Shown: positions 102-61,668 of the stretch, piece after piece | Layout: each line of letters starts with the position of its first letter | Position numbering within the stretch: position 1 is the first letter of the stretch | Source of the DNA: Acidaminococcus fermentans DSM 20731 | GTDB lineage: Bacteria; Bacillota; Negativicutes; Acidaminococcales; Acidaminococcaceae | Reading direction: 5' to 3' | Assembly (NCBI RefSeq): GCF_000025305.1 | Contig: NC_013740.1 | Location: forward strand, 1,240,001-1,304,000 | DNA: 64,000 bases | Notes under the pieces: model-generated | What the model was told of the DNA's origin: nothing | Seen by the model: the letters and a program-made list of their open reading frames with translations, nothing else | The model's database searches: none | Translations under genes and position numbers: made by a program

Positions 102-2330
102 CTACTCCTCTATCCCCATCATCCCCGCAAACCACTGATACGTCTCCTCCAGTTTCCACTCCTTCGATTCCCTGGGAAAATACAAGAGCATCCCTTTGCG
201 GCTTCGGGTTAGAAGCACCCGGTACACGTTTTCCAGGACTTTTCTCAGATCCTTCAACCCTGGATTGGTGGCCTTGGGATCTACCACCCATTTTCCATTT
301 TGGATGTAGAAATCACCGATGAAGGAAACGATGGGAAATTCCAATTCGATCCCCTGGATCAGGAATTCTGATGCGCCCCGGGTCAGCTTGTAACTTTCTT
401 CATTATACCATTGATAGGCTTCGGTAGCCTTAACATAGCTGCCCCTATACTGGGGACCAAACATCCCTGGGATATGTCGAAGATGGGAGGAAACCACGAT
501 CCCCGTATGGTCTCCTGGATAGTTCTGCTGGACATAGGAAACGAAACCGGGGAGTTTCTTGGGGTCCCAGGCTCTCCAACATAGAAACCCTTTGGCCAGC
601 ATGTCCTGGTACGCCTTCCTGGCTTTGTCCATGTTGAGTTCCAAGATCGCTTCCACCCAAGGGCTTACGTTGATAAAGTCATGCCGGATGGATGTGGTGA
701 GCATCAATTCCGGGCTCACATGAAGGGTAGGAACACTGCTAAAAAGCTGTTTGTAAGAATCAGGAACATAGGCATTCCAATCACTTCTATTGGATAAGGC
801 ATCCACCCAAAGGGGCATGCCCGTTTCTTCGTGACGATGAATGGCCTGGCCATCTCCAATCAAGCACAAGATGGTCACCTTTCCATATTTCGCCGCAATC
901 CGGTCCCCCAGACGTAACAGCAGGGTGGCTTCGTTTTCTCCTGGTTCCTTGGTGTCCGTATCCCAGGCCCGTTGGGCTTCATCAAATACAATAATATGGT
1001 GCAAAGGAACCGTTACCCCATGGGCCAGGTATTTGAAGTCTTTCATGGACTGGATGTAGCTTCCGCCTTCTTTGTCCACCCCGTTGGTGGATAAGGTATG
1101 CTGCAGAATGTTGACCAGGGGATCATTTCCGGACAGGTAGATGGGTGTCAAGGTTTCCAGGTCATGGGCATGATCGTAGACGGTTTTCAGACCTACCAGG
1201 GTCTTCCCCGAGCCCGGGACGCCAGAAACAAAGATGATGCTTTTGGCAATAGAGGGATCCGCAATGACGGCATTGATGGAGTCTAGGGTCTCTTTAATAT
1301 CGCCTTCTCGGATGGTCTTGATATTGGGCAGGTCCCCTTCTTTGAAAAGCTGCAGAGTGGCATCGGCAATATTCTTCAATGGGTAGAAGGGAGAAGCAAT
1401 CCAATTGTACCATTCTTGTTCGGTCATGGGAACCTGGTCTTTTAGGGTGTTTAGAAGGGTGGACGTAAAGTTACCAGGATGCAACACATCCACCAGGTGA
1501 TGATTCCCTTCCGGGTCCACATGGGTATAAACCAGATGAGCTTCCACCTGCATCTCGTTCTTTTCCGTTTCGTAATGATAATGGGAAATGCTTTGCCGAT
1601 ACCCAGCAGCCTGGGCCACATCATCTTTGAGGATGGCCCTTTTTTCCTTAAATTCCAAGATGATCACCTTATCCCGGGAAAGGAGCAGTACGTCCGCACG
1701 CTTTTGGGAATCGGGCATCATATATTCAAAGGCCAGGGTAAAATTATCCAGTGCCGCATCGATAGGAAGATATTTTTGAAGGAACTCATAGCAATCGTAC
1801 CAGGAGCGATCGTTGGCCTCCCCTACTGAACAACCGCAGGTCTTTTCTACAAAATCATGACAAGCGGCCACAAACCCTTCTTGGGTGATTTCTTCCCGAA
1901 ATTCCTTCAAGGTTGTGACAAGAGCAGCTCTATCTTTAACTAGGTATTTCCGAAAAGCCGTCACCACAATCCGATCCGCCGGCAGCCAATCCACATCATC
2001 CAAGTCATCATAGGAAAGCCACTTTTTCGCTTCGTGTTCCAGCAAAGTCAGGTCGCCTTTTTCCACTTTGCAGATGAAGCACTCCATGGAGAGGTGAAAG
2101 GTGGGGTAGTCGTATTCCACCGTAGTGAGAGGCTGTTCCACCCGGATGTCCGTAGCCAGTTCTTCCCGGATTTCCCGTTTGATGGCCTGTTCCGGAGTTT
2201 CCCCTAGCTCGATCTTGCCTCCAGGGAATTCCCATCCGTCTTTGAATTCTCCATACCCCCGTTGGGTGGCCAGAACCTTATCCTGGTTGAGAATCAGCGC
2301 TGCCACAACCCGTACCGTTTTCAAAGCCAT
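102..2330 (-). CDS. NUDIX / PD-(D/E)XK / DUF2075 helicase fusion
   Basis: Three enzymatic parts lie in one 742-residue chain. Residues 1-130 are a MutT-like NUDIX domain: the Nudix box (37-59) is intact except that the usual Gly near its end is Ala. Residues 150-270 contain a PD-(D/E)XK nuclease-like signature (D213, E226, K228). Residues 355-735 are a DUF2075/Schlafen-type helicase with Walker A GVPGSGKT (370-377), Walker B DEAQ (450-453) and a C-terminal motif with TRSRKG. DUF2075 proteins are ATP-dependent helicase-like enzymes, often in defence contexts. A nucleotide-sensing or nucleotide-cleaving NUDIX domain joined to nuclease and helicase suggests antiphage function by inference. The ATG at 2330 has a purine-rich ribosome site (GAAGGGGAG). 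It stands alone, with no partner gene visible. Confidence 0.88.
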   Translation of the reverse strand: MALKTVRVVAALILNQDKVLATQRGYGEFKDGWEFPGGKIELGETPEQAIKREIREELATDIRVEQPLTTVEYDYPTFHLSMECFICKVEKGDLTLLEHEAKKWLSYDDLDDVDWLPADRIVVTAFRKYLVKDRAALVTTLKEFREEITQEGFVAACHDFVEKTCGCSVGEANDRSWYDCYEFLQKYLPIDAALDNFTLAFEYMMPDSQKRADVLLLSRDKVIILEFKEKRAILKDDVAQAAGYRQSISHYHYETEKNEMQVEAHLVYTHVDPEGNHHLVDVLHPGNFTSTLLNTLKDQVPMTEQEWYNWIASPFYPLKNIADATLQLFKEGDLPNIKTIREGDIKETLDSINAVIADPSIAKSIIFVSGVPGSGKTLVGLKTVYDHAHDLETLTPIYLSGNDPLVNILQHTLSTNGVDKEGGSYIQSMKDFKYLAHGVTVPLHHIIVFDEAQRAWDTDTKEPGENEATLLLRLGDRIAAKYGKVTILCLIGDGQAIHRHEETGMPLWVDALSNRSDWNAYVPDSYKQLFSSVPTLHVSPELMLTTSIRHDFINVSPWVEAILELNMDKARKAYQDMLAKGFLCWRAWDPKKLPGFVSYVQQNYPGDHTGIVVSSHLRHIPGMFGPQYRGSYVKATEAYQWYNEESYKLTRGASEFLIQGIELEFPIVSFIGDFYIQNGKWVVDPKATNPGLKDLRKVLENVYRVLLTRSRKGMLLYFPRESKEWKLEETYQWFAGMMGIEE

Positions 2331-5406: not shown

Positions 5407-6147
5407 TTAAAAATCTTCATACTCATCCTTTGTCCCGGTCAATTCTGCCCAACGGGCTGCCAGGAGTTTTGCATAGTCAATATAAAACAGCCCGTAACTT
5501 CCCAGTGCATATCCATCATTGACTTCAATGAGTAGAGTTTTGTCCGTATCCGTCACACCAAAATCCAAAGAATAGCCGGCTGGCGCGGTTTTGTAATCCC
5601 GTACGGCCCTTTTGATGACTTCCGGATCCGGTATTTTCTCCCAGGTTCCCCGATAGTGTCTTGCATCCAGGATTTTGCCATAGCGGATAAAACAGCGCCA
5701 CTCTGTTACAAACCGGACGGGTTCCGAACACCACACAGGTACATCGTGCTCCCAGTTTCCGCAGCCGACCAGATCTTTGGGAGAACGGACCAGTACACCG
5801 GTGATTTCTTTATCAGCAATGGATTTGACGAATACAGGCCACTGTTCTGGATGGGAGTTAATGGTATTGATGGTGGATTTCCAGATTTTTCTTCCCAGAC
5901 AATATTCCAGCTCTGCCGGATAATCCAAGTCTGGATAGGAGAAACCCATTTCTTCCAAATGTTGCTGGACCGCTTCTACATAACCAACCAAAATATCTTC
6001 TGGCTCAGCCTGCCGCATTTCCAAGGGATTATGAAAGAAGCGGATTTCGGCCCCCAGTTCTTCAAACCCGCACATGGCCTCAAAAAAATTCTTGCTGGCA
6101 GGACGTTCCCCTTTGTGAGCCTGTATCCAAACTTTCATTTTGTTCAC
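5407..6147 (-). CDS. ATP-grasp domain protein, copy 1 (246 aa)
   Basis: Resembles the short ATP-grasp (DUF4343-like) proteins: MKVWIQAHKGERP at the start, a central FVKSIADKEITGVLVRSP that fits the lysine-containing nucleotide-binding strand, EWRCFIRYGKILDARHYRG, and a C-terminal LIEVNDGYALGSYGL with the E/N metal ligands. ATP-grasp enzymes ligate a carboxylate to an amine using ATP; the substrate is unknown. A near-identical copy lies at 10346-11086. It is preceded by its own promoter within a dispersed-repeat edge. Confidence 0.85.
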   Translation of the reverse strand: MNKMKVWIQAHKGERPASKNFFEAMCGFEELGAEIRFFHNPLEMRQAEPEDILVGYVEAVQQHLEEMGFSYPDLDYPAELEYCLGRKIWKSTINTINSHPEQWPVFVKSIADKEITGVLVRSPKDLVGCGNWEHDVPVWCSEPVRFVTEWRCFIRYGKILDARHYRGTWEKIPDPEVIKRAVRDYKTAPAGYSLDFGVTDTDKTLLIEVNDGYALGSYGLFYIDYAKLLAARWAELTGTKDEYEDF

Positions 6148-6481: not shown

Positions 6482-6617
6482 TCACGCCTTATTAGGAAAC
6501 TGGATCACTTTGGGCTGGCTCTCTCCCACCTGCTCCAGTTCTTTCCGGACGTTTTCCATCTCCTTCTGCTGCCGGGCCTGGATGAGTGCCACTTCTTTCT
6601 GGGCGTCATCGAACTTA
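6482..6617 (-). pseudogene. Integrase 3'-end fragment
   Basis: About 135 bp matching the 3' end of the integrase gene at 11425-12717 (on the plus strand CACGCCTTATTAGGAAAC through GGGCGTCATCGAACTT). It encodes the C-terminal tail only and has no catalytic residue. It marks a past recombination or deletion that removed the rest of the gene. Confidence 0.85.
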
Positions 6618-6680
6618 TTGAACCCGGCCTTGACATTTTCCTACTACCGAACTTTTTCTGGGGTGAATTTTTCTCTGCTA

Positions 6681-6746
6681 TTATAGCAGAAAAGCCACAC
6701 ACTCAACCAGACCTCTCTGGAGAAGACCCAATGCTATGTCATTCAT
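6681..6746 (-). CDS. Putative 21-residue peptide MNDIALGLLQRGLVECVAFL..
   Basis: A very short ORF with an excellent ribosome site (AAAAGGAGGGGACC-ATG). It encodes a mostly hydrophobic peptide ending VECVAFLL. A second copy at 53537-53605 encodes a 22-residue version with the same ribosome site, three substitutions and an added C-terminal Ser. Conservation of frame, start and site suggests a real small protein, perhaps a membrane-active or leader peptide. It ends inside the palindrome TCTGCTATTATAGCAGA. Confidence 0.4.
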   Translation of the reverse strand: MNDIALGLLQRGLVECVAFLL

Positions 6747-6770
6747 GGTCCCCTCCTTTTCAGGCATAAG

Positions 6771-6799
6771 AAAAGCCCGCTGCCGGGGCAGGGGGCTTA
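6771..6799 (-). terminator. Terminator between the 56-aa gene and the 21-aa ORF
   Basis: AAGCCCGCTGCC pairs with GGCAGGGGGCTT; on the minus strand it is followed by CTTTTCTTAT. It overlaps the stop of the gene at 6797. The same hairpin occurs at 53630-53659. Confidence 0.7.
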
Positions 6800-6967
6800 T
6801 GAAACATAAATTATTCTTTTTATGTCTTCCTTTGAAATTTCTATCTGATCCTCTATTTCAGGGCTCTCATAAGGTTCCATCAAGAAATCTCCGTTAGGAA
6901 ATTCGTGAAGCAAGCACCCTTTTCTCCCATTCTTTAGTTCTACACAATCTAACTCTTTTGCCTTCAT
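6797..6967 (-). CDS. DUF4926-like small protein (56 aa)
   Basis: Begins MKAKELDCVELKNGRKGC and continues LLHEFPNGDFLMEPYESP. The pattern 'vELkdGrkG.vve.f.nG...vE' resembles DUF4926, a small beta-barrel protein often next to DUF6883 toxin-like domains. Ribosome site GGAGGGGAAGCC; the start ATG overlaps the upstream stop (ATGA), so it was translationally coupled to the DUF6883-like gene. Probably the immunity half of a toxin/immunity pair whose toxin half is now broken. Confidence 0.6.
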   Translation of the reverse strand: MKAKELDCVELKNGRKGCLLHEFPNGDFLMEPYESPEIEDQIEISKEDIKRIIYVS

Positions 6968-7345
6968 GGCTTCCCCTCCTTAATTTCAGGTTTTAAATAA
7001 GAAGATGTTAGACGTGGCTTTATTGAACCATTATCTATAATCCACCCGGTTGTTAGCAAAATCCTGTTATTTTGCAAATCAGTAACAAAGAAATTAGCGC
7101 CATATTATGGCCTTGTTCGTTTATTCCTCTATCCTCAAACTTAGCATTAATAATATTTTGACCTATCAAATCATCAAGCTTTTTATAGACACTTTGAGTA
7201 TACCCTAAATATTTTTCAAAAGCAACTGCGTTTGGCCCCCTGATAGATGATCCTTATTCAAACAATAATCATATAACTTTTCTTTAGCTATAACGAGATT
7301 TTCAGGATTCGCAAATAATCTTGCAATCTCATCGCTTTCTCAGGA
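6964..7345 (-). pseudogene. DUF6883-like toxin-domain remnant
   Basis: Three reading-frame segments align in order to one domain: FANPENLVIAKEKLYDYCLN, then PNAVAFEKYLGYTQSVYKKL, then TGWIIDNGSIKPRLTSSYLK ending in TGA. At least two frameshifts separate them, and a further stop lies upstream, so no full protein can be made. The pattern (KL.DYLLN..H, FE..LGYT, GWii..G...PRLTSaY) is that of DUF6883, a C-terminal domain of polymorphic or CDI-type toxins. The rest of the toxin is missing. Confidence 0.6.
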
Positions 7346-7488
7346 AACTCTGCCCCGCTGCCATTCCTTTTCCCCTTTTAATGTGTATGAGTTTACAGCA
7401 GATGCACTTGCTGCATGGCTTCGTAAAATTCCTTGCAAATATGCCCAAACCGTGGTAATTTTGTTAAAAAAAGAAGGAGCCCTGGAAT

Positions 7489-7686
7489 ATGTTTCCGATA
7501 AATAGATGTAGGTGTTGTAAGCATTATGTGGTTTATCCGCGGGAAGATATGCGGGGATGTCCCTACTGTGATGCATTTCCAAAAGGGATTCCTTTTGATA
7601 TTTTTACCGAAAAAGTGAAGCATGATAAACCGTATCCAGGCGATCATGGGATTCAATACGAACCAGCGCATCCAGAAGCTGAATAA
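7489..7686 (+). CDS. Cys-rich small protein (65 aa)
   Basis: Contains CRCCKHYVVY then MRGCPYCDAFPKGIP and a conserved-looking tail PYPGDHGIQYEPAHPEAE. The cysteine pairs suggest a small zinc ribbon. I recognise the pattern as a widespread short hypothetical family in Firmicute accessory regions; function unknown. AGAAGGAG precedes the ATG by 9 nt and a terminator follows at once. It is on the opposite strand to its left-hand neighbours, as a self-contained single-gene unit. Confidence 0.7.
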   Translation: MFPINRCRCCKHYVVYPREDMRGCPYCDAFPKGIPFDIFTEKVKHDKPYPGDHGIQYEPAHPEAE

Positions 7687-7696
7687 AATCTAATAG

Positions 7697-7730
7697 AAAG
7701 CACCTGGCAGAAATGCCTGGTGCTTTTTTC
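7697..7730 (+). terminator. Terminator after the 65-aa gene
   Basis: GCACCTGGCA / TGCCTGGTGC hairpin with loop GAAA and a run of T (TTTTTT), starting 11 bp after the stop. Confidence 0.8.
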
Positions 7731-7755
7731 ATGCCTGAAATAATGGGCTGACCCC

Positions 7756-7900
7756 CAATCATCAAGAATAGCTCCATGCCTTTTATTGCAAGAAAAAGCC
7801 CCGCAATCGCCTTGACTGCAGGTCTGTTTTTTCCCCCTGGGCGGACCTGGCGACGGTCTCCCATGACGGGTAGCCCCTGCGGCATTGCAATGGGTCATTG
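7756..7900. repeat. Dispersed repeat, short copy, plus a copy of the doc 3' flank
   Basis: 7759-7790 (AATCATCAAGAATAGCTCCA onward) nearly duplicates the end of doc and its downstream flank (8598-8630). This is followed by a shortened repeat: hairpin GCCCCGCAATCGCC...GACTGCAGG, GGGCGGACCTGGCGACGG and GCCCCTGCGGCATTGCAA. Confidence 0.7.
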
Positions 7901-7932
7901 GATATCCACAGTACCGTTTTTTATTCTATAGG

Positions 7933-7961
7933 TTGAATTTATCCTATTTATGGGTTACAAT
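7933..7961 (+). promoter_or_regulatory. phd-doc promoter
   Basis: TTGAAT (7933-7938), 17-bp spacer, TACAAT (7956-7961), 32 bp before the phd start. Phd-Doc operons are normally autorepressed by Phd/Doc binding at such a site. Confidence 0.65.
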
Positions 7962-7992
7962 TAAATCATCAAACTTTAAGGAGGCATCAACT

Positions 7993-8235
7993 ATGAATGT
8001 CAATACAGAAAATCTTGTTTCCATCACAGAAGCAAACCAGAACTTTTCCCGTGTAGCCAGAATGGTTGATGAGAAAGGTCCTGTTGTCATTCTGAAAAAC
8101 AACTCGCCTCGCTATCTACTGGTTGAGTTCAACAACGCTGAACAGGAACAGCTTGCTGACGACGAAGATGTACTTACCGTTTCCAGACGTTTAATCGCCA
8201 AGAATCGGAAGGCCTATGAGGTTCTTGCCAAATGA
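7993..8235 (+). CDS. phd: Phd/YefM-family antitoxin
   Basis: 80 residues. The N-terminal half (VSITEANQNFSRVARMVDEK, then GPVVILKNNSPRYLLVEF) is the Phd/YefM fold that dimerises and binds DNA; the acidic C-terminal tail would occupy the Doc active site. The ATG at 7993 has TAAGGAGGCATCAACT upstream. Its stop overlaps the doc start (ATGA), so the pair is translationally coupled. The antitoxin neutralises Doc and should repress the operon. Confidence 0.92.
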   Translation: MNVNTENLVSITEANQNFSRVARMVDEKGPVVILKNNSPRYLLVEFNNAEQEQLADDEDVLTVSRRLIAKNRKAYEVLAK

Positions 8236-8609
8236 TTGTTCTTTCAAAAGATCAAATCATCAAACTTCATACGCAACTGATTCAAGAGACAGGGGGAACT
8301 GATGGCATCCGGGATGAAGGATTACTGGAATCCGTATTGGCCGCACCATTTCAGTCCTTCTCAGGCACAGACATTTATCCATCTTTACAACAGAAGGCTG
8401 CTCGTCTCGGATATGGTCTTGTAAAGAACCATGCTTTTATTGACGGCAATAAACGTATCGGTGCACATGTAATGTTGGTGTTTCTCGCTCTTAATAAGAT
8501 TGAGCTCACCTATACACAAGATGAACTGTCAGATACATTTTTAAAAATTGCCTCTGGAGAACTCTCGCAGCAAGATCTTCTTCACTGGATTATCATTCAT
8601 CAAGAATAG
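8232..8609 (+). CDS. doc: Doc toxin (Fic-fold kinase)
   Basis: 125 residues with the Doc variant of the Fic motif, HAFIDGNKRIG (H/F/D/GNKR), in a helical Fic fold. In this family the enzyme phosphorylates EF-Tu and blocks translation (family knowledge). All key motif residues are present, so it should be active. Full usual length; overlaps phd by 4 bp and is followed by a terminator. Confidence 0.93.
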   Translation: MIVLSKDQIIKLHTQLIQETGGTDGIRDEGLLESVLAAPFQSFSGTDIYPSLQQKAARLGYGLVKNHAFIDGNKRIGAHVMLVFLALNKIELTYTQDELSDTFLKIASGELSQQDLLHWIIIHQE

Positions 8610-10345: not shown

Positions 10346-11086
10346 TTAAATATCTTCATACTCATCCTTCGTGCCTGTTAATTCTGCCCAACGGGCTGCC
10401 AGGATTTTTGCATAGTCAATATAAAACAGCCCGTAACTTCCCAGTGCATATCCATCATTGACTTCAATGAGTAGAGTTTTGTCCGTATCCATCACACCAA
10501 AATCCAAAGAATAGCCGGCTGGCGCGGTTTTGTAATCCCGTACGGCCCTTTTGATGACTGCCGGATCCGGTATTTTCTCCCAGGTTCCCCGATAGTGCCT
10601 TGCATCCAGGATTCTTCCATAGCGAATAAAACAGCGCCACTCTGTTACAAACCGGACGGGTTCCGAACACCACACAGGTACATCGTACTCCCAGTTTCCG
10701 CAGCCGATCAGATCTTTGGGAGAACGGACCAGTACGCCGGTGATTTCTTTATCAGCAATGGATTTGACGAATACAGGCCACTGTTCTGGATGGGAGTTAA
10801 TGGTATTGATGGTGGATTTCCAGATTTTTCTTCCCAGACAATATTCCAGCTCTGCCGGATAATCCAAGTCTGGATAGGAGAAACCCATTTCTTCCAAATG
10901 TTGCTGGACCGCTTCTACATAACCAACCAAAATATCTTCTGGCTCAGCCTGCCGCATTTCCAAGGGATTATGAAAGAAGCGGATTTCGGCCCCCAGTTCT
11001 TCAAACCCGCACATGGCCTCAAAAAAATTCTTGCTGGCAGGACGTTCCCCTTTGTGAGCCTGTATCCAAACTTTCATTTTGTTCAC
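10346..11086 (-). CDS. ATP-grasp domain protein, copy 2 (246 aa)
   Basis: Differs from the copy at 5407-6147 at only a few residues (for example DLIGCGNWEYD versus DLVGCGNWEHD, and a final EDI versus EDF), with all motif residues kept: FVKSIADKEITG, EWRCFIRYG and LIEVNDGYALG. Both copies therefore appear to be under selection, or the duplication is recent. Its upstream promoter and repeat are duplicated too. It lies downstream of the integrase gene on the same strand. Confidence 0.85.
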   Translation of the reverse strand: MNKMKVWIQAHKGERPASKNFFEAMCGFEELGAEIRFFHNPLEMRQAEPEDILVGYVEAVQQHLEEMGFSYPDLDYPAELEYCLGRKIWKSTINTINSHPEQWPVFVKSIADKEITGVLVRSPKDLIGCGNWEYDVPVWCSEPVRFVTEWRCFIRYGRILDARHYRGTWEKIPDPAVIKRAVRDYKTAPAGYSLDFGVMDTDKTLLIEVNDGYALGSYGLFYIDYAKILAARWAELTGTKDEYEDI

Positions 11087-22336: not shown

Positions 22337-23263
22337 TTGAAATTTTCAGATTTCGCCAATGGCTTATACCCTTTTTGTTCGGGACGCTTGAAAAAAGAAC
22401 AATATTTCAATGAATTAATTGGAAATTTTATTCAAGATTCCGCTTTGGATTCATGCCCTGTTCTTGGGAAAAAACGTGACACAAAATATCGATATATACA
22501 AGGTAAACGTAACTTTACCCCTAGTGATGCCAAATACATATATGATTATCGCGACAAAAAAAAGTTCTCGGCCTGGATTGCACATCAGGATGACGAATTT
22601 AATTCATATGACGGTATAAAAAAATGGTTGGAAAGTAATGGTATAAATGATGAGTATGTAGATGACGCCTGTGCAGACTTATTTGAAGAAATCATATTGG
22701 CACTTACCGACAACACCTCATCAAACGATGTTTCACAACTAAAAGTTGATTTGTCAGTAATTAATGATATAGAGGAAAAAATAAAGTGCCTCCCTCGGCC
22801 GATCTCTGTACCGGTTCCAAAGAAAGCAACTGAAAATGAAAAACAGTATATTGAAGAATTATTCAGGGCCTATGGTGATGCAGAAAATCTTCCGATGTTT
22901 TCTGCAACTGATCTAGACAAATACCCAGATTATTTCGAGGACCTTAATGATCGTCGGATTGATTTCTATGCTGCTGTTTCTATCCAAAGAGGTGTTTTAG
23001 AGCTGCACGGTAAAAATCTCGCTAACCAGTTCGATGTCCTTAAAGAGGAAGTCCTAGATGGAGTAAAAGATACTGTCCGAAAATCCCACCCTAATGGGTA
23101 CGAACGAATGCTTTCCGTAATGGAACTTGCCGTAGCATTGCCAGTTCCAAACTACCTTTTAAGTTCGTCCCCATTCTGGATTAGCGGAAAAATCAAAAAA
23201 GGTGTGTGTCACCATCTTGTAAACGACCATAAAATAAGGTGGATAAAGGAAAAGCATGAATAA
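22337..23263 (+). CDS. ABC-three-component system, first component (308 aa)
   Basis: Starts at TTG with GAAGGGGGTGCACTAA upstream. MKFSDFANGLYPFCSGRLKK, a long helical body and a C-terminal part with KIRWIKEKHE. Together with the two genes that follow, it fits the ABC-3C defence operon: an effector or scaffold protein, a small middle component and a Rad50-like ATPase. The specific effector activity is not apparent from motifs. Much more AT-rich than the phage genes to the left, suggesting separate acquisition. Confidence 0.65.
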   Translation: MKFSDFANGLYPFCSGRLKKEQYFNELIGNFIQDSALDSCPVLGKKRDTKYRYIQGKRNFTPSDAKYIYDYRDKKKFSAWIAHQDDEFNSYDGIKKWLESNGINDEYVDDACADLFEEIILALTDNTSSNDVSQLKVDLSVINDIEEKIKCLPRPISVPVPKKATENEKQYIEELFRAYGDAENLPMFSATDLDKYPDYFEDLNDRRIDFYAAVSIQRGVLELHGKNLANQFDVLKEEVLDGVKDTVRKSHPNGYERMLSVMELAVALPVPNYLLSSSPFWISGKIKKGVCHHLVNDHKIRWIKEKHE

Positions 23264-23717
23264 TACAAAAGCAATTAGCTCAACATTTGAAATGGCTTTA
23301 CGCATCTTACTTTTATTAAGTAGAGTTAGAAGTCATACTTTAAACATAATGCAAATATGCGAAATAGACTTTATTGCTGTATATGCTGCAGATTTCGGAT
23401 TATTGGATGAAAATTTACATGGATACGGGGAATATAGATTCAGTGAATTTCTAGCAAGAAAATCTGTTGTATGGGAAGCAGTAAAGGACTTAGTGATCGA
23501 ACGGCTTCTAGATTTTAAGTTATCCAAAAAGGGGTATCTTTTTAAAATAAATGCTGTAGGTCTTAATTTTGCTGATGGAATTACCGCGCCATACGCTGAA
23601 GAATATAGGTTGGCTGTTGAAACCGTTATTAACGCATACAAACTTTCAGAATCACGTATGCTAAAAGAAATCAATCAATACACACTCCGTTCTTTACAGG
23701 AGGATTCCCATGAATAG
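23256..23717 (+). CDS. ABC-3C middle component (153 aa)
   Basis: Small helical protein resembling the middle components of ABC-3C systems: TFEMALRILLLLSRVRSHTL, then ICEIDFIAVYAADFGLLDEN, and VVWEAVKDLVIERLLDFKLS, a winged-helix-like pattern. Overlaps the first component by 8 bp and the ATPase by 8 bp, so translation is coupled. Likely an adaptor between effector and ATPase. Confidence 0.7.
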   Translation: MNNTKAISSTFEMALRILLLLSRVRSHTLNIMQICEIDFIAVYAADFGLLDENLHGYGEYRFSEFLARKSVVWEAVKDLVIERLLDFKLSKKGYLFKINAVGLNFADGITAPYAEEYRLAVETVINAYKLSESRMLKEINQYTLRSLQEDSHE

Positions 23718-25538
23718 ATTTTATTTTAAAAAATTAATTGTATCTGGCGGAGGGCATAAGAGTTCTTCTATCGATTTTATTCGAGGATTTAACCTTATCA
23801 TTGGTCCTTCCAATACAGGAAAAAGTTTTATAATGGCTTGCTTGGATTATGCTTTAGGAGCAATGCCTAAAGCAAATCACCCTTCAAAAGTCATTGATGC
23901 CAACGAAGGTTATGAATTTGTTACATTAGAAATTAAAACAGCAAATGGTGACGTCACATTAAAAAGAAAAATTGGAGAAAATAAAATAGAGGTGACAAGC
24001 TCAGATACTGCAGTTGAATCTGGGTGTTATAGTGTTAAATCGAATACAAAGAAAAACATAAATTCGTTTTTTTAGCACTTTTAGGGGTTAATTCTGACCA
24101 TAATATTTTGTCTTCTGAAGCCGGAGATACTCAAAAATTATCTTGGCGGACGATGCTTCATTTTTTCTTTATCTGTCAATCAGATATCGCTCGGGAGACT
24201 TCACCTTTTATAACTCCAGGTTGGCCTGCTTCAACTCCTTCAAAAGCAACTCTACTTTTTTTACTAACTGGCAAGGACGCTAATAATCTGCAAAAGCCAG
24301 AAGATCCTGAAATAAGTAAAGCAAAAAAGAAAGCTCTTATCTCGTACATTAGAGATAAACTCGATAATTTAAGTTCCAGACAAGAAAGCCTAGAAAAAAT
24401 TGCCTCACAGTATGAGGATATGAACATAACCGATGCTGTTAATGACCTAAAGAAGGAAATGCTAAATGTTCAAAAACAGATTAATACAGCTGTAGTTAAA
24501 GGACATTCCATTATGTCAAAAATTTATGACTTAAATGGAAAGCTCGCTGAATGTGAAACTGTTATTCACAGTTTTTCAATTCTTCATCAACAGTATCAAT
24601 CTGATATTAATAGATTAGAGTTTATAATTGACGGTGGCTTAGCTACTCAAAAACTCGCTCATGTAGCACACTGCCCCTTCTGCAATTCTGATATAACAAA
24701 AACTCCTAATACAAAATATATAGAAGCATCTTCAGCTGAACTGGAAAAAATCAAATCACATCTTAAAGGCTTATACACAGCAAACCAAAGTGTTGAAAAG
24801 AAGAAGCAAAGCATACAAACACATATCAAGGTGCTAGAGGATGAAAAAAATAATATTGATGTACTGATCTCCAATGAACTGTCGCCGCGGCTTTCAGAGT
24901 TCCAAAAAGAGTTAGAAGACAAAATGCATCTTATACAAGTGTTTAGTGAACTAGAATTCTTACGTCAAACTGAATCACAATACCGAAAGGAGTTATTCGA
25001 CAAGGAAAATGAGGAAGATCCGGTATCTGTTAAACACAAAATAGCGGATTATTTTGATTATGACCTTGTACATGGCTTTGAAGAAACATTAATAAAATTT
25101 TTGAGTGCATCAAAAGTTAGTGGTGCTACTACCGCTCGCCTCAATATGAAGAACTTTGATATTGAAATAAATAATAAAGGTAAAGCATCTATAATGGGTG
25201 GCGGATATTGTGCGCTTTTTAATACAATCACAACATACGCAATGAGCGAATACATTATTAGTAAAAATGGCTACGCTCCTGATTTCTTTATAACGGACTC
25301 TTCTCTGACCCAACTTTCTGAACCTGAGCAGGTCAAAGATATAGAAACTATCAAACATAATTTTATCCGATACCTCATTGATAATGCTTTAAAACGTCAA
25401 GTGATTATGATTGAGCAAAAAGAACGTATGCCTTTTATTCCTTCTGAAAATCCTAAGAAAGGTATCCATGTAATTGAATTTACTGGAAGCAAAAATGTAG
25501 GACGATATGGATTTTTGAATGATGTATTCAGTTTCTAA
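23710..25538 (+). pseudogene. ABC-3C ATPase, frameshifted in a T7 tract
   Basis: A Rad50/SMC-like ATPase of about 609 residues if one base is restored. Part 1 (23710-24075) carries FNLIIGPSNTGKSFIMACLD (Walker A) and ends NINSFF-stop. Part 2 resumes in another frame with LALLGVNSDHNILSSEAGDT, coiled coils, a zinc-hook-like CPFCNSD, a signature-like IMGGGYCALF and Walker B PDFFITDSSL. The break is exactly at T7 (24067-24073); one more T gives NSFFLALLGVN, the expected sequence. Either inactive, slippage-restored, phase-variable or a sequencing error. Confidence 0.8.
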
Positions 25539-32899: not shown

Positions 32900-35800
32900 T
32901 TATGATTTCTGGATATGCGATCCATACACATCCCGGAAATCACCTCTGTTTTTATCTTCCTTATCATTGATACGGACACGTTCTACCTTATGACGGTCAT
33001 TATCCTTACCAGAAATACGATCCACACGGAACCGGTCAATATTTTGAACTTTGACCAGTTCAGGTCCAAATTCATCCACCGACCGGGCCATATTTCCATC
33101 AGAAGGTGCCCCATTCTGTAAAGCCCGGTAGATGATCGCAGCATACTCATAGCGAGTCATAGAACGATCTCCCTTAAATTCTCCGTCCGGATATCCCTCC
33201 AAGTAGCCTTTTTCGGCCAATGTCTTCACATATTGGTAAGCCCAGTGGTTCTCTGGTACATCAGGGAAGTTCATGCTGTGCGTAGACGCAGGGATCGCCT
33301 TGGCAGGCTGGCCTGATTCATAAGCGGCTAATTTTTTCGTGAGTGTTTCGATTTGGTTTTTCATGGCCAGCATGTCCTTGGCCATGGACACTCTAGAGCG
33401 AGAGATATGGTTCTTTTGTCCAAATTTCCAACTGACTCCTACATTCACCATATTTTCGCCTCCGCTAAAGGAACCGCCCACACTGAACATCGTATCTTCG
33501 TTAGGACGATAATACGCTCCGATAGCGACTGCATGAGCATCTTTATAATTCCCATACCCTGCAGCAAAATCCCATTTGTCATCTGGATCGAAATCCAAAG
33601 GATGCAATCCTGCCAGAGCTGCGGCACCTGCCCCAACACGGTTCACCCGATCTCCCAATCGGCTGATCCGATTTTCCGCACGATACAGCTGGCTTCCATT
33701 TACGGCATCCGTACTGGTCGATGAAATATCTCCAGGAGCTACGTTAGTGATCTTATTTCCACCATTATTCAACCCATCTTTATTGAGCGTAACATCCTGA
33801 CCTGCGGAACCGTTTTGGATTGTCACCCCTCCTGTGGTTATGGTGGTGTCTCCAACGTTGACAGTGCTGGCATTTACCGTCGTGATATTCCCAGTGTCTG
33901 CTGTAACAGTCTTCGTGGTAACCGAATCCAGTCCTTTCAAATCCTTTGAAAGCCGCACTTTCAGGTTATCACTGCCATCAGATACCACTCCGATATTGTC
34001 TTCCATTGACAGTTGAGAAGAATCCTTAATGCCCCCAACGACATTTACTTGCCCATTGAGTTTTTTACTGATTACATTCCCTACGTCACCGCCATACTTC
34101 ATTCCATCGTTCATAGTGGCGACCGTCTGGGTATTCCCATTGTGATCTTCATAGACGATCCGATCAATACCATCTGTGCCATTATAGCCATCCGTGCCGT
34201 CTACTCCATTCACACCTTTTACAACATGGATGTCAGCAGAAGCACCATCCTTGCCATTGATGCCAATATGACCATCGGTACCATTGGTTCCGTCTTTGCC
34301 TATAGAAGAAATGGTAACCCCATCTTTGCCATCAGCACCTTTTACACCGATAGCCCCATTGATGCCATCAGCGCCGTCTTTGCCCTGGCCGCCTACGGTA
34401 ACCGTATCTGCTTTCAGATTCTTGTCCAATCCAATGACCAGATCTCCATTTGCATCCACTACAGTCTTGATGTTGGAAGCATCATATTCTGCGTCTGCTT
34501 TCGTCCCATTCCCTTTGATGGTCATGGTGCTGTTCAGTTTTTTGGCCACAGATCCTGTATTCCCCGCAAACTTCAGTCCATCATCTAATGTGGCAACTTC
34601 ATGGGTGACATGCCCATCATCTTCGTAAACAATACGGGTCATACCATTGGCACCATTGGAACCATCCACGCCGTCCTGACCCTTCGCGGATTTCATGGTA
34701 AGCCCATCTTTCCCGTCTTTTCCATTCATTCCGATAGAGCCATCTTTCCCATTGATGGTAACAGCTGAGCCATCTTTGCCCGCTACACCGATGGAACCGT
34801 CTATACCATTTTCGCCTTTTTCACCCAGATTCAGATTGTCATTGACATTGACCTTGTAGGGATCTTCCGTTGTGCCTGTGCCTGTAACTGTGGTATTTTT
34901 TCCGTCTACCAGTTTGGTGGCATTCTTGGCTATTTCATCTTTCAGCTGGCTGACATTCACCGCATCCGTCTCAGCAGTGCCAGCAGCCACATTGTGGATC
35001 TGGTTGCCGCCATTATCCAGCCCCTTTTCTGTCAAAGAAACTGGAGAAGTCCCTGGTGCCGGATTTTTCGGTTTGATCGTAATACCGCCAGCACCAATCG
35101 TTGTCTCATTCCCATATTTATCCGTAATGGTCGTGCCGCTTCCCTGGGTCACGGTCTTATTTCCGTTCGTATCGGCGGTAGTTACACTGGTTACATTCAA
35201 ATCATCGTTCAGGACCACTTTCATCGTTCCGTTTTCCACTTTCGTAGAAATATTTTTGCCGTCCCCGGTAACTTCAATATCCTCTCCCAGAGATTTGTGG
35301 ACGATATTCCCATCCTGATCCTTTAATCCGAACCCTTTTTCCGTTAAATCAGCAGACTGTTTCGTCAACTGACTGACGTTGACAGCATCTGTATCTGCTG
35401 TACCAGCAGCTACGTTGGTAATTTTCGTGCCGTTGGCATTGATTCCTTCCTTGGTCACAGATGGTCCGCCAGTTATGGTCATGCCCTGATTATTGATGGT
35501 GGTATCTCCAGCCTTTACCGTCTCAGCATTTACGATTTTCGATGTAATACTGTTCAGCCCAGTCACATCTTTTGCCAGTTTCACATTCATCGTATTATTG
35601 GCAGGATCAGCGACCACCCCAATATTATGATCACTTAAATTGCTGCTGTCAGCACCGCCCAAAAGGGACATGGCCTGGTCGGAACCGCGATGGAGCACAT
35701 TGACATCTGCTTCTGAAGTATTGCCAATGGTCGAATTATCTCCAGCAAACCGCAGAGGCCGGGTCATGGTGTAAAGCTGGCTTCCGTTCACAGCATCCGT

Positions 35801-38800
35801 ACTCTTTGCACTGACCAGACCAGCCGCAACGTTCTGGATGCGCCGTTCTTTCCCTACGGAGCCCACCGTTACAATACCAGCAGGGGTCCCCCCAGCATAT
35901 TGATAGGTTCCATTGCTGCTATAAGCATCCTTCCCTTTCGTAGTGGCTCCCGATACAACATAAGCAGAGTTACTGCCCAGATAGACGGAATTCCCCAAAG
36001 TGGCCGTTACATGGCTGCCCAAGATCTGGGTGTTGGACAAATCCGTATTCTGAGTCGTGGCATCAACGGTATTCTGGTTCCCCACGATTTGGATATCTGT
36101 CAGATTCATGTTTTTCTGGTTTTTTGACCGGATGGTGTTTTCCGAACCAGTAATAGTAATATCAGACACACTGCCCGCATCGCCTGCTGTACTTGTATCC
36201 GGATCTCCGGTCACCATATTCTGATTGCCCGTTACAAAGATATTACCAAAAGCTTTCGGGTTGGCAGAATTATTGGAAAGGGATTCCATTTTCAGCACGT
36301 TTTGATTCCCGACAATACGATTGCTGTCCCCTTCCATCCGGTTTTCATTCCCAAAGATCCCAGAATTCGAAGCACTTACATCAGCAGCTGTACCTGTTGC
36401 AGCCGTACTGTTCTGGCTGCCCAAAACATATGTATTTGCTCCCGTGACCCTGTTTTTAGTGCCGATCGCCCCGGAAGAAACACCTTCTGCCTGTGCATTC
36501 GTACCCACTGCGAGAGCATTTTCTGCCAGTGCCTGAGCCGTATCACCAATAGCGGAAGCACTTTTGCTGTTGCTCTTGGCATCGCTGCCGATGGCGATGG
36601 CTTTGTCATCAGAAACGCCAGCAGAATAGCCAATGGCCACAGCTTTATCTACACTGCTTCCACCATTTTTTATAGAGGAGGTTGCCAAAGACCCTATTGC
36701 CAGAGAATGATTTCCGGCTGCCTGAGCGCCAGCCCCGATTGCCGTGTTATATTGATAACCGCTGATGGCTAACGTCTGTTTCAGGCTGCCCGGGTTAGCC
36801 GGATCTTCATAACCGGCTCCCACTGTGATACTGCCAAGGCTCTGTGCTTCCGTATTATTCCCCAGGGCAACACTCCTGTCACCTAAAGCTTTGGCGCTCA
36901 CGCCAGCTGCCATAGAGTCTTCCCCGGTGGCCAAATCGTTATCATAATTATTCAGATTGGCAGATTTTACAGAGTAGTAATGTGTTTTTGCCGTATCGAC
37001 GATCTCATTGACCTGAGCGACATTCGCAGCATCAGTCCCCAGTGTCCCTGCAGCGACATTATGGATTTTCGTTCCCTTATTGTCATGATTGCGAAGGGTA
37101 ATACTGTCTCCCTCTCCAGAAGTGACCGTATCATAATATACCCCACTTGCCGTTGCAGAAGAAACATTCGCATTGACCTGAGCTACCGTAGCGTCTATTG
37201 ATTTTTTGAGCTGTGCCACAGTGACGGCATCCTGATCCAGTGCCCCGTCAGCAACGTTGGTGATGCGGCGCAAAGCCGATGCACTGCCGACTGAAACAGC
37301 CGTCTTAGGGGCCGCTTGGCCCGTCAGATATCCGGTTCCACTGATCATTGCGGCATTCGCTACGGAATCATTGCCGATGGCAACATTGCCTTCTGAAGCT
37401 TTTGCCCCCTGCCCCAAAGCCACACTGGCTGCATCTGCTGCCTGGGCGTTAAACCCAACTGCCGTAGATCCATTTCCATTCGCTTGGGCCTGATAGCCTA
37501 CGGCTACAGCGTCATCGGCAGCCTTTGTCTCACTGCCCAATGCTGTAGATTGGATCCGAGAAACAGCCGCATCATTTTTGTTCGCATGATAGCCGATAGA
37601 AACATTTTTCCCTTCCGATGTGTTTCCGCCAGCCCCGATGTTAGTTCCAGCTTCAGAACCAATGGCTACATTATGGTCGCTTTTGACATCATTTCCCGTT
37701 TTATAGCCAATTGCAATATTTTGCTGTCCGTCAATATTGTTGCCGGCACCATCGCCAATGACCACATGGGATCCTTTGGCCCCTAATACATCCCCTACCA
37801 TACCTACCCCTGCATTCGGGCCAAGTACGACAGACCGGACGGCATTGGCACTGGCATCTTTACCCAAAACCACAGAAGCACTGCTCCCAGCAGCGGCTCC
37901 GTTCCCAATAGCTACGGCATCTGCCCCACTGGCCTGCGCACTCTTCCCCATAGCCAGGGCATCTGCTCCACTGGCTGCTGCCTCCGTTCCAACCGCAATG
38001 CTGGCAGCTCCAGAAGCAGCCGCACTTTTACCTAGCGCCATTGCCTCTTCTGCCTCAGCCTTTGCGCTGTCTCCCATTGCTACAGCACTATGACTGTTTT
38101 TCGTCACAGCAGCGCTGTTGCCCATCGCAATTGCATGATTCGAAGCGACCGTGCTGGCCTTCGTTCCAATTGCCATACTGTTATTGTTGAGCTGAGCGTT
38201 TGTCCCGTCATTATAGACCGTCGCTCCATCCCCCAGGGCAATCGAAGAATTTCCCCGAGCATTGGCTGCATCGCCGATGGATATGCTGGATTTGCCTCCG
38301 CCTGTAACCACAGTGGAGCTATCACCATCAGACGTCATACCGTTGAAAGATCCGCTGACAGCTTTTCGGCCAATGGCAATACTGTTTTCAGCAAATGAAG
38401 CAGAACGAGCAGCATCGCCCAGGGCTACAGAATCTTTGCCATTCGCTTTTGCACTGACACCGATGGCAACAGCATCTTTACCCGCAGCTGCAGCGTCCTC
38501 TCCTGTGGAATTGGCGCGGAAATACTTCATTCCCGGTTTTGTTTTATCCAATCCCAAAGCAGAATTCACATTTTTTAGCTCTGTAATATCGGCTGTATTA
38601 TTGTTGATTTTTCCTGTATTAGTCGTAATTGCATTTTTATTTGCTGTAATATCCGTCTTGTTTTGCTGGATTTCATTGGCATTCTGGTTAATCCCAGCCT
38701 TATTGTTAGCAATCTCTGTGCTGTTATCCGCAATTTTGTCAGTATTGGCAGCAATAGCTGTTTGGTTATTTTGTACATCTGTTTTAACTGCATCCACTTC

Positions 38801-39103
38801 TGCACTGGTTGCGACCCCATCAGTGGATATTGTGATTGTCTTTGTTGTGTCGTCTTTAGTTACAGAGATGTTAGTTCCGGCATTCAAAATATCACCGTCA
38901 TGAACAACTTCTGCGTTAACATAATGCACACTTCCAAATACGAACATAGCTGTTAATACGGTGCTAGTCAGTGCCTTCCCAGATTTAACAATCGATCTTA
39001 ATAAAGAATTTCCCGATGTTTTTCCGCCATTTTTTGCTAATTCTGAAACAACCTGGTACTGCCCTTTTGCGCGATTGAATATAACCTTGTAAACCCTATT
39101 CAA
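32900..39103 (-). CDS. Trimeric autotransporter adhesin with C-terminal SLH domain (2067 aa)
   Basis: Starts at TTG (39103) after AAAGGAGGCGATTAGA. Order: ESPR extended signal (MNRVYKVIFNRAKGQYQVVS, 1-24) and signal peptide; coiled coil (~95-180); many YadA-type head repeats (AxAxGxxSxAxG pattern, for example GKDAVAIGVSAKANGKDSVA); neck/HIM repeats (TKITNVAAGTADTDAVNVSQ); collagen-like Gly-X-Y stretches (~1400-1700, GADGKDGVTIS); YadA anchor barrel (~1815-1896) and, unusually, a coiled coil and one SLH domain (~1944-1995, PDVPENHWAYQYVKTLAEKG) after the barrel. Surface adhesin; the SLH part would face the periplasm and could bind peptidoglycan. Confidence 0.92.
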   Translation of the reverse strand: MNRVYKVIFNRAKGQYQVVSELAKNGGKTSGNSLLRSIVKSGKALTSTVLTAMFVFGSVHYVNAEVVHDGDILNAGTNISVTKDDTTKTITISTDGVATSAEVDAVKTDVQNNQTAIAANTDKIADNSTEIANNKAGINQNANEIQQNKTDITANKNAITTNTGKINNNTADITELKNVNSALGLDKTKPGMKYFRANSTGEDAAAAGKDAVAIGVSAKANGKDSVALGDAARSASFAENSIAIGRKAVSGSFNGMTSDGDSSTVVTGGGKSSISIGDAANARGNSSIALGDGATVYNDGTNAQLNNNSMAIGTKASTVASNHAIAMGNSAAVTKNSHSAVAMGDSAKAEAEEAMALGKSAAASGAASIAVGTEAAASGADALAMGKSAQASGADAVAIGNGAAAGSSASVVLGKDASANAVRSVVLGPNAGVGMVGDVLGAKGSHVVIGDGAGNNIDGQQNIAIGYKTGNDVKSDHNVAIGSEAGTNIGAGGNTSEGKNVSIGYHANKNDAAVSRIQSTALGSETKAADDAVAVGYQAQANGNGSTAVGFNAQAADAASVALGQGAKASEGNVAIGNDSVANAAMISGTGYLTGQAAPKTAVSVGSASALRRITNVADGALDQDAVTVAQLKKSIDATVAQVNANVSSATASGVYYDTVTSGEGDSITLRNHDNKGTKIHNVAAGTLGTDAANVAQVNEIVDTAKTHYYSVKSANLNNYDNDLATGEDSMAAGVSAKALGDRSVALGNNTEAQSLGSITVGAGYEDPANPGSLKQTLAISGYQYNTAIGAGAQAAGNHSLAIGSLATSSIKNGGSSVDKAVAIGYSAGVSDDKAIAIGSDAKSNSKSASAIGDTAQALAENALAVGTNAQAEGVSSGAIGTKNRVTGANTYVLGSQNSTAATGTAADVSASNSGIFGNENRMEGDSNRIVGNQNVLKMESLSNNSANPKAFGNIFVTGNQNMVTGDPDTSTAGDAGSVSDITITGSENTIRSKNQKNMNLTDIQIVGNQNTVDATTQNTDLSNTQILGSHVTATLGNSVYLGSNSAYVVSGATTKGKDAYSSNGTYQYAGGTPAGIVTVGSVGKERRIQNVAAGLVSAKSTDAVNGSQLYTMTRPLRFAGDNSTIGNTSEADVNVLHRGSDQAMSLLGGADSSNLSDHNIGVVADPANNTMNVKLAKDVTGLNSITSKIVNAETVKAGDTTINNQGMTITGGPSVTKEGINANGTKITNVAAGTADTDAVNVSQLTKQSADLTEKGFGLKDQDGNIVHKSLGEDIEVTGDGKNISTKVENGTMKVVLNDDLNVTSVTTADTNGNKTVTQGSGTTITDKYGNETTIGAGGITIKPKNPAPGTSPVSLTEKGLDNGGNQIHNVAAGTAETDAVNVSQLKDEIAKNATKLVDGKNTTVTGTGTTEDPYKVNVNDNLNLGEKGENGIDGSIGVAGKDGSAVTINGKDGSIGMNGKDGKDGLTMKSAKGQDGVDGSNGANGMTRIVYEDDGHVTHEVATLDDGLKFAGNTGSVAKKLNSTMTIKGNGTKADAEYDASNIKTVVDANGDLVIGLDKNLKADTVTVGGQGKDGADGINGAIGVKGADGKDGVTISSIGKDGTNGTDGHIGINGKDGASADIHVVKGVNGVDGTDGYNGTDGIDRIVYEDHNGNTQTVATMNDGMKYGGDVGNVISKKLNGQVNVVGGIKDSSQLSMEDNIGVVSDGSDNLKVRLSKDLKGLDSVTTKTVTADTGNITTVNASTVNVGDTTITTGGVTIQNGSAGQDVTLNKDGLNNGGNKITNVAPGDISSTSTDAVNGSQLYRAENRISRLGDRVNRVGAGAAALAGLHPLDFDPDDKWDFAAGYGNYKDAHAVAIGAYYRPNEDTMFSVGGSFSGGENMVNVGVSWKFGQKNHISRSRVSMAKDMLAMKNQIETLTKKLAAYESGQPAKAIPASTHSMNFPDVPENHWAYQYVKTLAEKGYLEGYPDGEFKGDRSMTRYEYAAIIYRALQNGAPSDGNMARSVDEFGPELVKVQNIDRFRVDRISGKDNDRHKVERVRINDKEDKNRGDFRDVYGSHIQKS

Positions 39104-44640: not shown

Positions 44641-44775
44641 TTTTTTGCCTTCTGAGCGGCCGGGGATGGGTTTTCCTGCGGGGAGCCCCTATCACGTTGG
44701 GATCGGGGGATCGTGCATCTGGCGGGCCTCCCGGCGTGAGGCCCCTACGGCATCGCAATGGACCATTCGCCCTAT
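44640..44775. repeat. Dispersed repeat, variant 2 (copy at 44.7 kb)
   Basis: GAGCGGCCGGGGATGGG, GCGGGGAGCCCCTATC, GTGCATCTGGCGGG and GCCCCTACGGCATCGCAATG match the copy at 4.8 kb. The right part of the element is displaced by the IS3 insertion and reappears after 46526. Confidence 0.7.
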
Positions 44776-44944
44776 ACTGTCCCCATAAGTGTGGACACTT
44801 TTTAAGAGTAGCACCTGCCCACAAAATTGGACAGGCTACAATTTGAATCCTTTAAAATTGGCGTGCTCATTTTGGACCCAACCTATTGAACACAATCATA
44901 TGCATGTGGTATCCTCAAATCCAATAAAGCCAAGGAGAATCCAC

Positions 44945-56637: not shown

Positions 56638-56676
56638 AAGTGTACTCCTTTCGTACTCCTATGCTGATGAAGGGGA

Positions 56677-59853: not shown

Positions 59854-59901
59854 ATTTTTTGGCTCCTTACTGTATATATATCCGTTTAAATCAAGATCGT
59901 A

Positions 59902-60408: not shown

Positions 60409-60512
60409 TCTAGTTCTTACGTATAAAAAATCAATAATTTAGGATTTAATGTATATTCACCAATTCGTAAGACTTGAAAATACTGTTAGTCCTCTTTTTC
60501 TTCATCCTTGCT

Positions 60513-61667: not shown

Positions 61668-61668
61668 T

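Follow-up and report, generated by a model that had tools for sequence, protein, structure and literature searches.

A Nudix domain joined to a nuclease-helicase in Acidaminococcus fermentans: a possible modified-dCTP hydrolase within a putative modification-dependent restriction enzyme

Introduction

The window analysed here, a stretch of 64,000 nucleotides from Acidaminococcus fermentans DSM 20731 (NC_013740.1, positions 1,240,001 to 1,304,000), carries at 102..2330 on the minus strand a gene whose 742-aa product, P0001, was recognised from its open reading frame (ORF), Pfam and PADLOC matches and a structure model as a Nudix / PD-(D/E)XK nuclease / SLFN-g3 (DUF2075) helicase protein. The locus raises the question of why a domain that hydrolyses nucleotides should share one chain with a nuclease and a helicase. 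Our preferred answer, held tentatively and with its chances judged nearly but not quite even, is that P0001 combines modification-dependent restriction with the hydrolysis of modified dCTP in one enzyme, the latter activity perhaps protecting the DNA of the host.

Domain organization of P0001

The P0001 gene is a single ORF of 742 codons that starts with ATG, contains no internal stop and has AGAAGGGGAG immediately 5′ of its start codon. It occupies positions 1240102-1242330 of the 2,329,769-base genome (1240105-1242330 in the genome search match), and the features of P0001 given below all lie on the minus strand. Pfam searches matched residues 6-115 to NUDIX (E 2.5e-18) and residues 363-719 (window 174..1244), an SF1-type helicase domain, to SLFN-g3_helicase PF09848 (E 1.4e-39, 136.9 bits, cut-off 24), which we take to be the current profile for what an earlier, sequence-only reading of this DNA called DUF2075. 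The match above the cut-off, together with the Walker A motif GVPGSGKT (residues 370-377, 1200..1223; invariant except for A or S at 374) and the Walker B motif DEAQRAW (residues 450-456, 963..983; invariant except at residue 455), identifies this part as an SLFN-g3 / DUF2075 helicase. An AlphaFold model built from a 42-row alignment had a mean predicted local distance difference test score (pLDDT) of 90.2 and a predicted template modelling score (pTM) of 0.84, and its helicase part resembled the human SLFN11 structure (7zep) over residues 316-720 (Z 17.4, root-mean-square deviation (rmsd) 4.4, 289 residues aligned).

The nuclease had no Pfam match when P0001 was searched over its whole length, and was recognised through its homologues and its modelled topology. 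An alignment of 14 homologues shows no variation at E202, D213, E226, K228, Q240 or Y244, nor at the main residues of the helicase motifs GVPG(S/A)GKT and DEAQR-x-W. Of 13 nuclease segments scanned with a threshold of E <= 1, 8 matched HSDR_N and 8 matched NERD, both profiles of the PD-(D/E)XK type (best 4.6e-5 and 3.6e-4, respectively), and the segment of P0001 itself gave a weak match to NERD alone (E 0.061). The modelled core at residues 171-268 (1527..1820) has the order alpha-beta-beta-beta-alpha-beta, in which the second strand carries D213 and the third E226/K228, so that D...ExK and QxxxY (Q240xxxY244) stand on the core typical of a RecB-like PD-(D/E)XK nuclease. A search of PDB sequences with the nuclease profile found no nuclease, and the match lists of the whole-model structure searches were filled mainly by Nudix chains; hence no solved nuclease could be named for residues 171-268 by sequence, or by fold in searches so dominated. 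The sequence-only reading had placed a Nudix box, the nuclease signature D213/E226/K228 and an intact helicase in one chain, with the nuclease around residues 200-250. The single ORF, the Pfam matches for NUDIX and PF09848, the HSDR_N and NERD matches in homologues, the conserved residues and the modelled fold all bear this out.

PADLOC matched residues 167-724 of P0001 to the candidate defence profile PDC-S41 (E 6.4e-81, 270.6 bits, profile positions 31-629 of 657, a profile for which no curated cut-off is printed) and residues 4-128 to PDC-S07 (E 6.8e-47); P0001 is a PDC-S41-type nuclease-helicase to which a Nudix domain has been added. Far weaker matches were obtained for Nhi (6.8e-8, 29.6 bits, in 2 stretches) and AbiO (4.1e-7). 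These matches are compatible with a nuclease-helicase of the Nhi/AbiO kind that is triggered by phage replication complexes and whose Nudix domain lowers a nucleotide pool or removes a signal, which widens the idea of the sequence-only reading, and the available text of two papers describes Nhi as responding to the phage SSB and as nicking and unwinding DNA (PMC12904381, PMC10732053). We nevertheless regard this explanation as unlikely, since the Nhi and AbiO profiles score 27-30 bits against 270.6 for PDC-S41, and since related Nudix genes accompany SRA, DUF3427 and McrBC genes, which the idea of a signal does not predict.

Type and probable substrate of the Nudix domain

The Nudix domain covers residues 4-130 (1941..2321), as delimited by PF00293, PDC-S07, the PDB chain 3GWY and the modelled structure. 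Its Nudix box (residues 38-60, 2151..2219), GGKIELGETPEQAIKREIREEL, is complete save for A59 in place of the last G, with the catalytic acidic and Arg residues intact; judged by the box Gx5Ex7REUxEExGU and the fold, P0001 thus contains a Nudix hydrolase. By sequence the nearest solved chain is 3GWY (E 2.9e-24, 41% identity), and the identity to E. coli NudG and MutT is 30% and 29%, respectively. 3GWY is Q5LBB1 (Q5LBB1_BACFN) of Bacteroides fragilis, which, according to the available text of its description, hydrolyses 5-Me-CTP, 5-Me-dCTP and 5-MeOH-dCTP with kcat/Km values of 4.4e6 to 6.7e6 M-1 s-1 (4.8e6 for 5-Me-dCTP and 4.4e6 for 5-MeOH-dCTP) and is about 50-fold less efficient on 5-OH-dCTP (PMC5158307). 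The best structural match of the domain was Mycobacterium MutT2 with 5mdCTP (Z 20.5, rmsd 2.1, 126 residues aligned), with which several other Nudix chains tied.

In a tree of 37 Nudix sequences, 3GWY clusters with Nudix proteins that accompany SRA-HNH and SauUSI-like genes (support 82/90), and this group adjoins the one that holds P0001 and further SauUSI- and PDC-S41-linked Nudix proteins (93/83). Residue 119 is D in 36 of the 37 sequences, the exception being E. coli MutT (N). The PDC-S41-linked Nudix proteins stem from several lineages, with a minimum of 8 changes on the best tree, of which well-supported branches force 6. Taken together, the Nudix domain of P0001 looks active and, judged from its nearest characterised relative, would hydrolyse 5-substituted dCTP. 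A signalling Nudix acting on ADP-ribose or cyclic nucleotides was set aside, as the nearest relatives are dNTP enzymes.

Recurrence of the Nudix and nuclease-helicase pairing

A class-wide search of 300 genomes gave matches in 102; among the matches listed, a single match over the full length occurred in the own genome only, and most of the others cover the Nudix part alone. A scan of 84,980 species genomes confirmed at least 465 relatives out of 592 stretches, and the best 80 were taken. Gene slots were read from ORF lists rather than annotations, Nudix genes were detected with a profile built from partner Nudix proteins, and related loci are not independent. Among the best 80 relatives, a second fusion of 784 aa with the same Nudix-nuclease-helicase order was found in a Flavobacteriales metagenome-assembled genome (MAG) (L083). 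Elsewhere the two genes are neighbours in several phyla. Adjacent pairs on one strand, arranged either way round and in many cases sharing a few bases, were found in Vibrio (L092, L098), Flavobacterium (L086), Salinimicrobium (L094), a Coriobacteriia MAG (L089), Geothermincola (L110), two Clostridiales (L138, L156), a Bacteroidales (L157), a faecal phage scaffold (L034), L047 and L049. L131, L084, L097 and L116 were not counted as adjacent. L138 was considered as a further true fusion and rejected, since its Nudix ORF is closed by a separate stop codon and overlapped by the following gene; it counts as an adjacent pair.

Confirmation by the whole protein ranks loci with a nearby Nudix higher; the linkage count was therefore limited to 61 loci with a helicase-only E <= 1e-36 and 20 class loci. 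Among these 81 loci not chosen for Nudix, a Nudix gene lay within 150 bp in 8 (same strand in L047, L049, L086, L089, L094 and L110, opposite strand in L081 and L106), and was fused in 1; 3 Nudix genes lay farther away. Counted by slots, Nudix was present in 8 of 77 near and 3 of 843 far slots (Fisher 2e-7). On a quick tree of 101 nuclease-helicases (no bootstrap; seven loci under 480 aa, L106 among them, omitted), the 15 Nudix-linked rows need at least 12 changes and the two fusions stand far apart; the linked rows are slightly clustered (shuffled mean 14.3 changes, 20 of 500 shuffles as low). The nuclease-helicase family is sparse, being found at E <= 1e-30 in 5 of 398 genomes of the phylum, with Nudix fused in the own genome and in an operon in another (G402). 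A Nudix domain also adjoins one of the three plasmid loci examined (L185).

P0001-type Nudix domains were observed in other chains as well. One forms the C-terminus of an Orn/Lys/Arg decarboxylase (L060:7927-9741, minus strand) directly before an SRA-like gene at 7265-7924, and two are fused to a C-terminal domain (L063:7332-8135 and L064:7837-8643, both minus strand), which in L064 is 2-thiouracil desulfurase PF04463.

The sequence-only reading had supposed that the Nudix domain senses or destroys a nucleotide signal and so gates the nuclease-helicase. The destruction of a nucleotide fits our results; a signal nucleotide and gating found no support. In the loci analysed the Nudix is mostly a separate gene, often beside unrelated restriction nucleases, and it has been lost in frame in a homologue of the same genus (see below), which suggests a companion activity rather than a regulatory gate.

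Association with modification-dependent restriction genes

The N-terminal slot that the Nudix domain fills in P0001 is taken by an SRA domain in a Chloroflexi nuclease-helicase (L128, PF02182, 5.9e-48) and by an SRA-like domain in L099. SRA-like relatives of the L099 domain are encoded by separate genes, which stand next to the family in L084 and L171 and, with weaker similarity, in L107, and lie one gene away in L092 and L098; the L107 ORF has no Pfam match, and its SRA-like assignment rests on a custom profile (7e-13). The Vibrio SRA-like protein has a C-terminal HNH domain (1.4e-10) with sub-threshold matches to DUF3427 and SRA, and that of L171 has HNH (9.4e-11) with SRA below threshold. 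The model of the L092 protein (pLDDT 80.8) matched ScoMcrA over residues 1-279 (Z 14.2, rmsd 8.5), the SRA domain of SUVH5 (Z 14.2, rmsd 2.8, 130 residues aligned), TagI (Z 12.9), AspBHI (11.2) and SauUSI (11.1), so that on its modelled fold it is taken to be an SRA-HNH modification-dependent nuclease. In L171, the genes form a compact operon in the order Nudix, SRA-HNH, nuclease-helicase.

The shared N-terminal position led us to consider that the fused Nudix fold is itself a reader of modified bases in DNA, filling the slot that in L128 holds SRA and in L099 an SRA-like domain. MutY has a Nudix-like C-terminal domain that reads modified bases in DNA, MutY chains are among the structural matches of P0001, and P0001 has no other reader. 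Against this, the Nudix box is complete in P0001 and in every compared partner, the Nudix is mostly a separate gene, and an SRA-HNH gene occurs together with a Nudix gene in L092, L098 and L171; a reading role appears quite improbable, and a catalytic Nudix domain is preferred.

Other genes of modification-dependent restriction recur as well. The family has McrB and McrC genes as neighbours in L081, L094, L184 and L185, and in L185, a megaplasmid of Niallia taxi, a 494-aa protein with HNH (9e-11) and Nudix (1.5e-7) side by side is encoded between McrC and the nuclease-helicase (6506-7990, plus strand), which makes it another type of Nudix-nuclease fusion. At a distance of up to about 2.2 kb, C5-methylase and/or Vsr genes are present in L040, L045, L091, L133, L140 and L165, and Vsr alone in L049. 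Seen from the Nudix side, a SauUSI-like PLD-helicase-DUF3427 gene (domains checked in one) stands directly beside 13 of 26 best-scoring Nudix loci, namely those among the best 30 of a longer class-wide match list, and L027, which is among these 13, encodes the nuclease-helicase too. The available text of PMC7159879 predicts that DUF3427 binds modified DNA, in the manner of SauUSI. On viral contigs with an SRA-HNH gene, a Nudix gene lies just before it in 5 of 6, and these Nudix proteins are 88-92% alike (four compared) and thus count as one lineage. L251 has the order McrB-like, McrC, Nudix and the PLD start of a DUF3427 gene. The available text of a Streptococcus suis study gives PDC-S07 and RM type IV as co-localised within 20 genes in 23 of 23 occurrences (PMC12813430). 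The defence setting that the sequence-only reading had set against an exclusively housekeeping one is thus upheld, since relatives of P0001 adjoin restriction genes.

History in the genus and the own genome

Matches to P0001 were found in 7 of 9 genomes of the genus, with the fusion intact in 1 of the 9. In G094, the nuclease-helicase is 73% identical and begins with ...ALKTVEV|GTAFR..., in which the first and last residues of the Nudix domain are joined, the middle having been deleted in frame, and the rest stays open. A free-standing Nudix gene (80% identical) is likewise present in G094, next to an SNF2-family helicase and a DUF1156 gene. G078 has kept the Nudix part whole (91%), and the rest is reduced to C-terminal remnants. 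The nonsynonymous and synonymous divergence (dN and dS) of the nuclease-helicase against a same-genus homologue is 0.17 and 1.73, and that of the Nudix part is 0.11 and 0.53 against G094 and 0.03 and 0.30 against G078; both parts of P0001 evolve under constraint. An annotation or frameshift artefact was also considered as the source of the fusion and set aside in view of the open ORF, the confident model and the low dN/dS.

The locus around the separate Nudix gene of G094 (L058:7959-14157, plus strand) continues with an SNF2-type helicase with a NOV_C domain and the DUF1156 gene, and presumably resembles a class 1 DISARM locus.

These data bear on a further explanation, namely that the Nudix domain is a general housecleaning enzyme, acting on 8-oxo-dGTP or similar, that was carried along by chance and whose fusion is irrelevant to defence. 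The single intact fusion among the 9 genomes, the in-frame Nudix loss in G094 that leaves the rest open, and relatives that stand by other genes or are fused to unrelated enzymes agree with it. It is nonetheless rather unlikely in our view, because the two fusions are distant on the tree, the pairs are tight, often overlapping and found in both orders, the partners share one functional theme, and dN/dS is low.

In the own genome, a type III restriction-modification (R-M) pair follows 53 bp after the P0001 stop on the same strand, outside the window, and comprises an 871-aa N6/N4-type DNA methylase and then a 919-aa ResIII protein. Together with the type I R-M locus at 56-64 kb and an ABC-3C component at 22 kb of the window, this confirms the earlier remark that the surroundings are rich in defence genes. 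The own genome has no McrC at E <= 1e-20, and no C5-cytosine methylase PF00145 in a search that was positive in 10 of 14 control genomes; the latter result favours a nuclease directed against modified cytosine.

Proposed function of P0001

We infer the substrate and the target of P0001 from its motifs, its neighbours and the nearest characterised Nudix relative. The helicase would move along or open invading, probably base-modified DNA, which the RecB-like nuclease would cut, and the Nudix pyrophosphohydrolase would remove 5-methyl- and 5-hydroxymethyl-dCTP from the nucleotide pool. The likeliest benefit would be self-protection, in that modified cytosines from phage enzymes or degraded phage DNA would be kept out of the host genome; as a second possible benefit, phages with modified bases could be starved of modified dCTP. 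The absence of the modification from the host is the usual reason for regarding type IV restriction as harmless to it. Such a nuclease spares its own cell only as long as the host DNA stays unmodified, so that the cell gains by excluding modified dCTP; should 5-methyl- or 5-hydroxymethyl-dCTP fill the pool during phage infection, this safety would fail and a dedicated pool cleaner would be needed. Q5 polymerase incorporates both nucleotides about as well as dCTP, according to the available text of PMC10742078.

A broader proposal, which we consider possible but distinctly doubtful, is that Nudix enzymes specific for 5-methyl/5-hydroxymethyl-dCTP serve as the pool arm, a metabolic antidote, of unrelated nucleases (PDC-S41, SauUSI-like, SRA-HNH and McrBC), excluding modified cytosine from the host genome and so preventing the nuclease from attacking its own cell, and also starve phages with modified bases, P0001 holding both activities in one chain. 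If true, the antidote would act on the precursor rather than on the nuclease or the DNA, and a Nudix family that at present figures only as a candidate in phage defence would gain a function.

Several results weigh against the proposed function. In P0001 itself, Pfam and NCBIfam searches found no SRA, DUF3427 or other modified-base reader, for which reason P0001 is not filed as a type IV member, only as likely to work like one, and D119 also occurs in PDB chains named MutT (5x1x, 3hhj), so that it separates P0001 from E. coli MutT and is no proof of substrate. The system next to P0001 is of type III and its methylase of the N6/N4 type rather than C5, and one further DUF3427 helicase of the own genome has no Nudix gene in its visible flank. 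As for linkage, Nudix is neither fused nor encoded within 150 bp in 72 of the 81 unselected loci, it is fused in just one and in the operon of just one of the 5 phylum genomes with the family, at least 9 relatives on viral contigs (found in a nuclease-helicase alignment scan) have none in view, and neither do the plasmid loci L184 and L186. Some relatives stand by or are fused to genes without an evident link, such as DUF2130 (L072, also the L023 locus), the decarboxylase of L060 and the desulfurase of L064. The 13 SauUSI-linked loci include near-copies (L008/L009/L010 and L011/L012), and the other 13 of the 26 Nudix loci have no SauUSI neighbour. The reverse test, made with a limited flank in view (mostly one flank for DUF3427 and HsdR genes), was modest, with Nudix in view at 6 of 30 DUF3427, 1 of 30 McrC and 0 of 30 type I HsdR loci. 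Finally, with several lineages of partner Nudix, those by McrBC (L081, L094) are not the closest kin of the P0001 Nudix.

Other features of the window

Two near-identical genes on the minus strand (5407-6147 and 10346-11086, 239 of 246 residues identical), the first of which matches ATP-grasp R2K_2/R2K_3, are a recent duplication. A Phd-like antitoxin gene (below the Pfam cut-off) with a Fic/Doc gene (7885-8609, plus strand) is probably a type II toxin-antitoxin module, and an ABC-3C CTD6 gene followed by two more genes, the second of which gave no Pfam match at E 0.001 (22337-25538, plus strand), is probably an ABC three-component defence locus. The minus strand at 32900-39103 encodes a 2067-aa protein that by eye is a YadA-like trimeric autotransporter adhesin. 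A C-terminal remnant of a second type I HsdR (EcoR124_C; 43625-44824, minus strand) is adjoined at 45-46 kb by an IS3-like transposase pair, named by eye. The type I R-M locus (55708-63990, minus strand) comprises HsdM (by eye), a two-domain HsdS, a half-length HsdS, HsdR and a tyrosine recombinase; its HsdS genes hold related direct repeats, and a search of them for inverted repeats of 25 nt found none.

Comparison with known systems

A literature search, outside whose reach lay preprints and most subscription papers, found no statement that Nudix accompanies several unrelated modification-dependent nucleases and no paper pairing DUF2075 with Nudix; DUF3427 and Nudix came up together in a different setting, and PDC-S07 turned up alone, without PDC-S41. 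The Streptococcus suis paper (PMC12813430), in its available text, reports part of the link between Nudix and type IV restriction, in the form of co-localised PADLOC labels.

Among the PADLOC candidates, the single-gene defence family PDC-S41 is like P0001 over residues 167-724 and shares the conserved D/ExK and helicase motifs, whereas its match begins after the Nudix domain and P0001 diverges from other members, scoring 270.6 bits where the hits in three other genomes, two of these hits being partial, reach 420-527. PDC-S07 matches the Nudix part, and its profile is one domain of 135 positions, whereas in P0001 this domain is fused to a nuclease-helicase. Nhi of Staphylococcus epidermidis and AbiO resemble P0001 in joining a nuclease and a helicase in a single chain, with weak profile matches; for Nhi, the available text of PMC12904381 reports phage SSB as the trigger and mentions no Nudix, which P0001 has. 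Q5LBB1 (3GWY), 41% identical to the Nudix of P0001, is a stand-alone enzyme for which the available text of PMC5158307 mentions no defence role, whereas the P0001 domain is fused. With SauUSI, ScoMcrA and TagI the likeness lies in the relatives of P0001, which are fused to or stand beside SRA-like readers with HNH, and in the related Nudix genes beside SauUSI-like genes; P0001 differs in having no recognisable reader, and its cutting of modified DNA is a prediction.

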